Shown in pieces: positions 25,962 to 27,429 of a DNA stretch of 40,386 bases (positions within the stretch are counted from its first letter, which is position 1; each line of letters opens with the position of its first letter). The position numbers and the translations under genes are program-made. Source of the DNA: Lentzea indica (GTDB taxonomy: Bacteria > Actinomycetota > Actinomycetes > Mycobacteriales > Pseudonocardiaceae); the NCBI RefSeq assembly GCF_012184385.1, contig NZ_VSRL01000059.1, forward strand, positions 1 through 40,386, given 5' to 3'. The notes below the pieces were generated by a model. That model ran no database searches and had not been told where the DNA came from. It saw nothing but the letters and a program-made list of their open reading frames with translations.

Positions 25962-26507
25962 CTATTCGCCGATCTGGCCGTCGATCGCTTCCCTGAGCAG
26001 GTCGGCGTGCCCGTTGTGCCGCGAGTACTCCTCGATCATGTGGGTCAGGATCCAGCGCAGGTTCGGGACACGGCCGTCCCGCCACGGCGCGCGCTTGGCC
26101 GGTTGGCCCAGATCGCCCTCGTCGAGAGCTTCGGCGACGGCCTTGCGCGCCCGGTCGACCTCGTCCTGCCAGAGGGCGTTCAGCTGCTCCGGGGTGTCGG
26201 CGGCCGCCGAGTGCCAGTCCCAGTCGTTGTCGGCCTTCCAGTCCACGCTCGCCCACGGCTCCAGCGGCTCGCGGTCGTGCAGGACCGTGTGGAACCACTG
26301 CTGCTCGACGTACGCGAGGTGCTTGATCAGACCGCCGAGCGTCATCGACGACTTGGCGGTGGTCTGGTTCAGCTGCTCCGCCGTCAGGCCTTCGGTCTTC
26401 CACGCGAGGGTGGCGCGGTGGAACTCCAGGAAGCCGGTCAGGGTGGCGAGCTCGTCGCCGTCCATCGGCGGTTCCGGGCGGCCCTGTTCGTCCAGTTGAA
26501 CGGTCAT
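25962..26507 (-). CDS. DinB-superfamily protein (DUF664)
   Basis: A 181-residue four-helix-bundle protein. The putative metal-binding histidines lie in LIKHLAYVEQQWF and in ILTHMIEEYSRHNGHADLLRE, the classic spacing of the DinB/mycothiol-transferase fold. DUF664 members are common in actinomycetes and many are thought to use mycothiol or bacillithiol; no reaction is known here. ATG at 26507 is preferred over 26546, since the extra residues are not family-like. The divergent DasR-type operator lies 39 bp upstream and could affect this gene too. Confidence 0.83.
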   Translation of the reverse strand: MTVQLDEQGRPEPPMDGDELATLTGFLEFHRATLAWKTEGLTAEQLNQTTAKSSMTLGGLIKHLAYVEQQWFHTVLHDREPLEPWASVDWKADNDWDWHSAAADTPEQLNALWQDEVDRARKAVAEALDEGDLGQPAKRAPWRDGRVPNLRWILTHMIEEYSRHNGHADLLREAIDGQIGE

Positions 26508-26545
26508 GGGCGTGATCCCAGCCGAAGTCGTAGAGTGCCACCACA

Positions 26546-26557
26546 TGGTCTAGACCA
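26546..26557. promoter_or_regulatory. Perfect DasR-responsive element (dre)
   Basis: TGGTCTAGACCA is a perfect 12-bp palindrome identical to the core of the dre consensus bound by DasR, the GntR/HutC-type regulator of N-acetylglucosamine use in actinomycetes. It lies 14 bp before the GTG of the DUF7916 gene, overlapping its leader, and 39 bp from the divergent DinB start. TAGAGT at 26531-26536 could be the -10 element, so bound regulator would block elongation. Confidence 0.78.
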
Positions 26558-26571
26558 CAGTGGAGGCAGAC

Positions 26572-27429
26572 GTGCGCATCCTCGACCTCGACCGCACCGG
26601 GCTCGCCGCACTCCGCGGACAGGAACTCTCCAGGGCCGTGGCGGCGTCCGAAGGCCGGACCATGGTCGCCGAGGTGTTCGCCGATCGTGCGGCGCTGTCG
26701 TTCGACGGGCAGACCGGCGTGCACAACGCCGAGCTGATGGCCGCCTTCGGTGCCGACGTCATCGTGCTGAACATGATCGACAGGGTCTGGGACGGCACCA
26801 CGTTCCGCTTCCCCGGTCTCGGCGAACTGGGCAGCCTGGGCGAACTGGCGTCGAAGATCGGCAGGCCGATCGGCGTCAACCTGGAGCCGGGCACCGTCCC
26901 CGAACTGCGCAAAGCCACTCGGGCCAACGCTCAGAGGCTCGCCGACGCGGGCGCGGCGCTCATCGTGCTGACCGCCAACCCGAGCACGGACGGTTCGCTC
27001 GACGGCATGGCCAAAGCGACCGAACAGATCCGGACGGACGCCGCGCTGTGGGTCGGCAAGATGCACCACGCCGGCCATCCCGAACCCATCACCGCGCAGA
27101 AGCTCGTGAACCTGGTCGACGCGGGTGCGGACGGCGTCATCCTCCCGCTCCCCGGCACGTTGCCCGGCGTCACGAGAGAGGCCGCCGCCGAAGCGGTGCA
27201 GGCAGTGCACGAGAAGGGCGCCGTCGTCATGGGCGCTATCGGCACGTCACAGGAGGGCTCACACACCAACGTCGTGCCGCAGCTGGCCCTCACCGCCAAG
27301 GAGATCGGCGTCGACGCGCACCACATCGGCGACTGCTTCCTGCCGGGCATGGGCGACCCCGAGCTGCTCTACGCCTACTCGGTCGCGATCAGGGGCAGGC
27401 GCCACACGTGGACCCGGATGGCGCGTTAG
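26572..27429 (+). CDS. DUF7916-type TIM-barrel protein, DasR-controlled
   Basis: A 285-residue predicted beta/alpha-barrel enzyme of unknown reaction. Family-like blocks are VAEVFADRAALSFDG, NAELMAAFGADVIVLNM, GRPIGVNLEPG, IVLTANPSTDGS, VGKMHHAGH, GADGVILPLPGTLPGVT, MGAIGTSQEG, HHIGD and YSVAIRGRRHTWTRMAR. The arrangement recalls PEP-mutase/isocitrate-lyase or aldolase barrels, and related genes in gut Firmicutes sit with PTS sugar loci (from memory). GTG at 26572 has GGAGG five bases upstream; GTG at 26560 is less likely. The dre immediately upstream ties expression to aminosugar status. Its stop overlaps that of the convergent hydrolase. Confidence 0.75.
   Translation: MRILDLDRTGLAALRGQELSRAVAASEGRTMVAEVFADRAALSFDGQTGVHNAELMAAFGADVIVLNMIDRVWDGTTFRFPGLGELGSLGELASKIGRPIGVNLEPGTVPELRKATRANAQRLADAGAALIVLTANPSTDGSLDGMAKATEQIRTDAALWVGKMHHAGHPEPITAQKLVNLVDAGADGVILPLPGTLPGVTREAAAEAVQAVHEKGAVVMGAIGTSQEGSHTNVVPQLALTAKEIGVDAHHIGDCFLPGMGDPELLYAYSVAIRGRRHTWTRMAR

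Follow-up and report, generated by a model that had tools for sequence, protein, structure and literature searches.

A predicted DasR operator before a DUF7916 gene of Lentzea indica points to a probable new member of the DasR regulon

In actinomycetes, sensing of N-acetylglucosamine (GlcNAc) through DasR, a regulator whose effector is glucosamine-6-phosphate, couples nutrition to development and antibiotic production. The available text of PMC4398421 gives a 16-bp consensus for the DasR target, the dre, as A(G/C)TGGTCTAGACCA(G/C)T and reports similar dre sites in the nagE2 promoter of Streptomyces coelicolor; according to the part of PMC4333415 available, the dre is read by Arg38, Arg48 and Gly69 of NagR. 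On the metabolic side, the accessible sections of PMC12680351 describe NagS as a GlcNAc-6P dehydratase limited to Streptomycetaceae, and those of McAllister et al. (PMC3283741) describe a pneumococcal ‘PEP phosphonomutase-like’ protein, encoded in a chitobiose-family PTS island, for which HHpred indicated a distant likeness to NanE, IMPDH and GMP reductase; no biochemical function for that protein was found in those sections. The open-access literature searched yielded no paper on DUF7916, and none linking DasR with phosphonomutase, nagE2 with haloacid dehalogenase, PEP phosphonomutase with PTS and GntR, or phosphonomutase with hylEfm. Neither ‘phosphonomutase’ nor ‘aldolase’ occurs in the main text of PMC4398421, and the available parts of PMC12680351, PMC12370203 and PMC11076491 mention neither DUF7916 nor phosphonomutase.

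The locus compared here with these systems lies in a 40,386-nucleotide stretch of Lentzea indica DNA, hereafter the window. Its DUF7916 (PF25509) gene, assigned by Pfam match and supported by an AlphaFold2 model, encodes 285 amino acids from a GTG start on the forward strand (26572–27429, stop included). A 64-bp intergenic region separates it from a divergent gene on the reverse strand (25962–26507) for a PF04978 mycothiol S-transferase of the DinB superfamily. Within this region, the dre core TGGTCTAGACCA (26546–26557), a predicted DasR operator, ends 14 bases before the GTG and lies 38 bp from the start codon of the divergent gene; it is the sole match in the window at up to two mismatches. 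The forward-strand hexamer TAGAGT (26531–26536), 9 bp 5′ of the dre, is a possible −10 element with a presumed promoter function; the aligned hexamer is TAGAGT, TACAGT or TAGGGT in the eight Lentzea loci examined (the window, L014–L019 and L023), and thus fits TANNNT in all of them. A Shine-Dalgarno sequence, GGAGG (26562–26566, forward strand), is likewise present in all eight Lentzea. Another in-frame GTG lies upstream at 26560, and the start at 26572 is favoured because the conserved GGAGG fits it. The palindrome, its distance from the GTG and the TAGAGT element were thus placed correctly in the original prediction. Its description of a ‘perfect’ operator holds for the 12-bp core (12/12) and fails for the flanks, since the Lentzea indica site CATGGTCTAGACCACA agrees with the published 16-bp consensus at 13 of 16 positions.

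The Lentzea genome encodes seven UTRA regulators, one of which (L046) is a DasR orthologue that matches S. coelicolor DasR at E 5e-94, excluding the objection that the genome might have no dasR gene. The comparison with the S. coelicolor DasR structure covered L046 alone among the seven, and the residues equivalent to NagR Arg38, Arg48 and Gly69, located by eye in an alignment, are conserved in it. The L046 gene is divergent from a DasA-like binding protein gene, next to dasABC, with a dre-like site between them. Genome-wide, perfect core sites number 5, against 2 for the reversed control pattern, and TGGTNTANACCA sites number 13 in 9.97 Mb, against 2 for the reversed pattern. Eight of the 12 TGGTNTANACCA sites other than the one studied here precede chitin, GlcNAc or PTS genes by Pfam match and our own reading: dasA/dasR, an LPMO, a CutC-ABC-GH20 locus, ptsI, a ROK kinase followed by nagA, a GH18 chitinase, glmS and a sorbose-family PTS IIB. 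Two more precede genes for a GH3 and a CBM2 protein, and the remaining two (L004, an AraC-like gene, and L079) have no clear assignment.

Two of these loci show features of their own. At the cutC locus (L002 1501–1512) and at ptsI (L003 1501–1512), the ATG takes its A from the last A of a perfect dre, and this overlap of operator and start codon suggests leaderless or very short leader transcripts. The CutC-family gene stands first in a locus (L038 6358–11463) that bears a dre and also encodes a sugar-binding protein and a GH20 hexosaminidase; in this setting CutC seems to belong with aminosugars and not with copper.

The DUF7916 protein matches PF25509 over residues 4–285 (E 3e-83, 279.7 bits against a cut-off of 27) and contains the motifs GKMHHAGH, PGTLPGVT and GTSQEG noted earlier. 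The AlphaFold2 model is a confident (βα)8 TIM barrel (mean pLDDT 92.6), in agreement with the fold proposed at the outset. Conserved residues stand at every barrel strand end in this model (E34, N67, N103/E105, T134/N136, K163/H165, T225-S226-Q227 and H251/D254), where they probably form the active site. In a Pfam search at E up to 1, DUF7916 was the sole match, with no PEP mutase, aldolase, NanE or HAD profile among the results, and sequence searches for a solved relative returned nothing convincing (best E 0.14 and 0.014). The structure search that had been suggested recovered the TIM-barrel fold, with tied matches at 7–16% identity to enzymes of unrelated reactions and a Foldseek TM-score, normalized by query length, of at most 0.53 among the 50 matches listed; they include MfnB (4rc1, 4u9p), class II FBP/tagatose-bisphosphate aldolases and 2-methylisocitrate lyase. 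Because these scores are tied, they single out no reaction, and we assign neither a reaction nor a family. The invariant K163, H165 and E105 are compatible with class I/II sugar-phosphate aldolases, a likeness that is not diagnostic and goes with a similar fold and no Pfam match. ‘PEP-mutase/aldolase-like’ is therefore at most a resemblance of fold, and the lactate-type product once suggested is unsupported.

Three named enzyme types find no support in the sequence profiles. NanE (ManNAc-6P 2-epimerase, PF04131) and the PEP mutase/isocitrate lyase superfamily give no profile match, and the HAD hydrolase of the database name conflicts with both the lack of a HAD match and a TIM barrel in place of a Rossmann-like core. 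The names ‘PEP phosphonomutase’ and ‘haloacid dehalogenase-like hydrolase’ that databases give to PF25509 members are thus not borne out for the Lentzea member.

DUF7916 is patchily distributed. Matches over the cut-off occur in 3 of 394 genomes of the class, in 9 of 390 of the family (eight Lentzea and one Saccharothrix), in 8 of 24 of the genus and in 13 of 343 Streptomyces genomes; another 394 genomes drawn from the Streptomyces family gave four, one already counted. The closest named orthologues (91–94% identity, seven loci) are all from Lentzea. The Streptomyces searches together supplied 13 full-length genes: seven lie directly 3′ of the GlcNAc permease gene nagE2 (L025, L055, L056, L057, L063, L074 and L075), and the other six (L058–L062 and L064) have no nagE2 in the stretch examined. 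S. silaceus (L022) adds one more nagE2 neighbour, and the upstream sequence of S. atriruber (L021) is identical to that of L057. The name nagE2 follows from the best NCBIfam match, a GlcNAc-specific IIBC model at 467.6 bits (under the cut-off, the permease having no B domain), together with two dre-like sites in the promoter (L035, L021, L022, L055, L056 and L066), as in S. coelicolor. Three shortened DUF7916 copies also stand behind nagE2 (L066/L068 and L076, 84–86% identity to S. silaceus nagE2) or, in L065, behind a more distant NagE-type gene (58%). These shortened and broken copies suggest that the gene was once commoner in Streptomyces and is now being lost.

At up to two mismatches, no dre stands directly before any of the 13 full-length Streptomyces orthologues, and a distant actinomycete copy that covers half of the profile (L026) has none either, its best site having three mismatches and lying 419 bp from the assumed start. 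The reading of a clean nagE2–DUF7916 operon in Streptomyces is weakened by the intergenic gaps: all five that were folded (L025, L055, L056, L057 and L063) contain a very stable long hairpin that may end nagE2 transcription, so read-through into DUF7916 is not assured. By eye, several Streptomyces copies have TANNNT close before the ATG, as in leaderless promoters. In Streptomyces genome G871, an aldose-1-epimerase-family gene is divergent from DUF7916 (L069 8836–9756).

Outside the actinomycetes, DUF7916 recurs beside sugar uptake and breakdown genes. On an E. coli plasmid, a UTRA regulator is divergent and the stop codon of an EIIBC gene overlaps the DUF7916 start; this EIIBC scores above the threshold set for the GlcNAc-specific IIBC model TIGR01998 (573.5 against 553.2 bits). 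In the E. coli collection, all 30 genomes with a match carry it on plasmids, with at least 80% of the gene covered in five and less in 25; ten records listed of these 25 keep only the last 193 bases. In E. faecium, DUF7916 ends a same-strand row of genes with GH20, GH2 (by annotation) and GH84 members. In E. durans it lies between a divergent UTRA regulator and a cellobiose-family EIIC gene, and a perfect 12-bp palindrome, TTGTTATAACAA (L042 8954–8965), stands 23 bp before its start; palindrome and divergent regulator together make a layout much like that of the Lentzea dre. A cellobiose-family EIIC gene also adjoins DUF7916 in Vibrio, and in Photobacterium a UTRA regulator is divergent and the nearest PTS found is fructose/mannosylglycerate-like. 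An E. faecalis record (L043 5907–9915) has DUF7916 after rapZ, a yvcK-family gene and whiA; rapZ and yvcK are linked elsewhere to the control of GlcN-6P and UDP-GlcNAc. These contexts, drawn from several lineages, indicate that DUF7916 goes with PTS uptake and UTRA control, and most specifically with GlcNAc. Given the cellobiose/lactose-family partners in E. durans and Vibrio and the fructose/mannosylglycerate-like one in Photobacterium, its substrate may be something other than an amino sugar in some lineages.

DUF7916 was also set against the core GlcNAc pathway of Lentzea. NagA is over the cut-off in all 24 genomes of the genus, with or without DUF7916, and NanE in none of the 24. NagB also passes the cut-off in none; every genome has a weak match under it, the highest of them scoring 97 bits (G009). 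A SIS-domain protein gene adjoining dasABC in the genome of the window (L091 5377–6417) likely encodes a glucosamine-6-phosphate deaminase. With NagA so uniform and DUF7916 so patchy, the latter looks dispensable for GlcNAc use, and NagA together with the likely SIS-domain deaminase makes an accessory branch more likely than a missing core step. DUF7916 as a substitute for such a step was accordingly set aside, NagA (24/24) and NanE (0/24) being the same regardless of its presence. A tie to NagS toxicity was also dropped, NagS being limited to Streptomycetaceae in the available text of PMC12680351.

Does the palindrome act as a DasR operator, and for which gene? Loose similarity means little: shuffled windows contain 0.73 matches on average at up to two mismatches, with at least one in 50 of 100 shuffles, and even the reversed control pattern has its two perfect sites in the genome. 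When the letters of the 64-bp intergenic region were shuffled 20,000 times, the perfect core never arose. Conservation is the stronger argument. The eight Lentzea orthologues with DNA examined all have a site with at most one mismatch at the same place, 14–15 bp before the start (four with the perfect core and four with TGGTTTAGACCA). Taken alone this is not decisive, because conservation in the Lentzea alignment is almost as high in the block preceding the core (0.95) as in the core (0.96); the 0.58 after the core is partly due to a one-base spacing shift. The Saccharothrix orthologue (75% identity; L020, the same as L053) lies in a different gene neighbourhood, and a perfect core stands 11 bp ahead of its GTG. 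The proposed search for a dre before Pseudonocardiales orthologues found one in 8/8 Lentzea and 1/1 Saccharothrix loci, and in 143,232 bases of these nine loci all nine matches at up to one mismatch are those before DUF7916. The palindrome is thus very unlikely to be a chance occurrence, a reading that conservation leaves scarcely credible. The same Saccharothrix locus bears on whether the operator serves the mycothiol S-transferase gene, its distance to DUF7916 being incidental. Both genes share the 64-bp region, with the site 38 bp from the other start, but in Saccharothrix the site stays with DUF7916 while the divergent neighbour is another, glycosyltransferase-like gene. We therefore regard this explanation as highly improbable, and an effect on the divergent DinB gene, raised in the original prediction, as an unlikely reason for the conservation of the site. 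A real operator might instead be read by a paralogous UTRA regulator. Among the seven, L050 shares 51% identity with the DasR orthologue; L051 stands before a NagE-like EIIC gene, and a dre-like site with one mismatch lies 5′ of L051. Yet it is L046 that adjoins dasABC and matches S. coelicolor DasR so closely, and the gene content at eight of the 12 other sites is typical of DasR, which makes a paralogue an unlikely reader. On this sequence evidence, DasR very probably controls the DUF7916 gene in Lentzea, and the gene is probably a new member of the DasR regulon. Support for this control is good in Lentzea and Saccharothrix; it does not extend to Streptomyces, where the lack of a dre before any of the 13 full-length orthologues goes against the prediction.

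What the enzyme does is the second point on which readings diverge. DUF7916 could be a general partner of PTS uptake, for example a phosphosugar repair or side-product enzyme acting on a substrate common to several PTS sugars, of which the GlcNAc regulon would be a lineage-specific use. Such a role would suit the cellobiose/lactose-family EIIC neighbours in E. durans and Vibrio, the Photobacterium PTS, which by our own reading is accompanied by a GH38-like enzyme, the divergent aldose-1-epimerase-family gene of Streptomyces G871, and the presence of NagA in every Lentzea genome. Against it, the most specific links are all to GlcNAc or hexosaminidases, namely the E. coli plasmid IIBC that exceeds the GlcNAc cut-off, nagE2, GH20/GH84 and the dre, and we consider a general PTS role somewhat unlikely. 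The dre before the gene and the relatives beside GlcNAc uptake and breakdown genes instead suggest that DUF7916 is probably an overlooked amino-sugar enzyme. Judged from gene context and the operator, an aminosugar-linked role is likely. That the protein is a phosphosugar enzyme is probable; that it is specifically a phosphosugar lyase or isomerase is somewhat less likely than not. We would put at slightly less than even odds the wider proposal that DUF7916 is an unrecognised aminosugar-phosphate enzyme across Actinomycetota, Bacillota and Gammaproteobacteria, recruited separately into GlcNAc-PTS operons, hexosaminidase operons and the DasR regulon, with a new reaction on GlcNAc-6-phosphate or a by-product. 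The ‘unrecognised aminosugar-regulon enzyme’ first proposed for this locus thus draws support from the operator, the dasR gene, the eight of 12 regulon-like sites and the aminosugar link across phyla, and is weakened by the missing dre in Streptomyces.

The best overall explanation, a true DasR operator governing a barrel enzyme that acts on a phosphorylated amino sugar, has in our estimate a probability of roughly 0.65. When little aminosugar is available, DasR would bind at 26546–26557, between the likely −10 element and the ribosome-binding site, and block transcription of DUF7916, as the layout of the site and the known mode of action of DasR suggest; a roadblock downstream of TAGAGT would fit the layout. 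As GlcNAc from chitin or cell wall enters and is phosphorylated, DasR would be released, with glucosamine-6-phosphate as effector by analogy with known DasR, and the enzyme would be made alongside chitinase, dasABC, ptsI and the nagK–nagA products. Its substrate would most likely be a phosphorylated amino sugar, either GlcNAc-6-phosphate or one derived from it, with the enzyme working as an accessory isomerase or C–C/C–O lyase and not at a core nag step.

A patchily kept extra enzyme under a dre points to an unknown branch of GlcNAc-6-phosphate metabolism, and DUF7916 genes stand beside GlcNAc transporters or hexosaminidases in three phyla. These proteins are also listed in databases as PEP phosphonomutase and haloacid dehalogenase, names that mislead, and an assay with hexosamine phosphates could put a name to several thousand of them (4257 matches). 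The DUF7916 gene would be new in a known regulon and gives a good starting point for working out what this uncharacterised enzyme family does.

Among described systems, the pneumococcal protein of PMC3283741 shares with DUF7916 a database name and a PTS partner; the two are likened here by name and context. NagS, as presented in the accessible part of PMC12680351, resembles the proposed role in being a non-canonical GlcNAc-6P branch in actinomycetes and differs in being confined to Streptomycetaceae, whereas DUF7916 is found also in Lentzea, Enterococcus, Vibrio and E. coli plasmids. Relative to the DasR regulon of Streptomyces, the Lentzea dre has flanks that depart from the 16-bp consensus, and the target here is a DUF gene that most of the actinomycete genomes searched lack; the two regulons have in common the 12-bp dre core, the DasR orthologue and, in Lentzea, dre-like sites before the chitinase, LPMO, dasA, ptsI, nagK–nagA and glmS genes.
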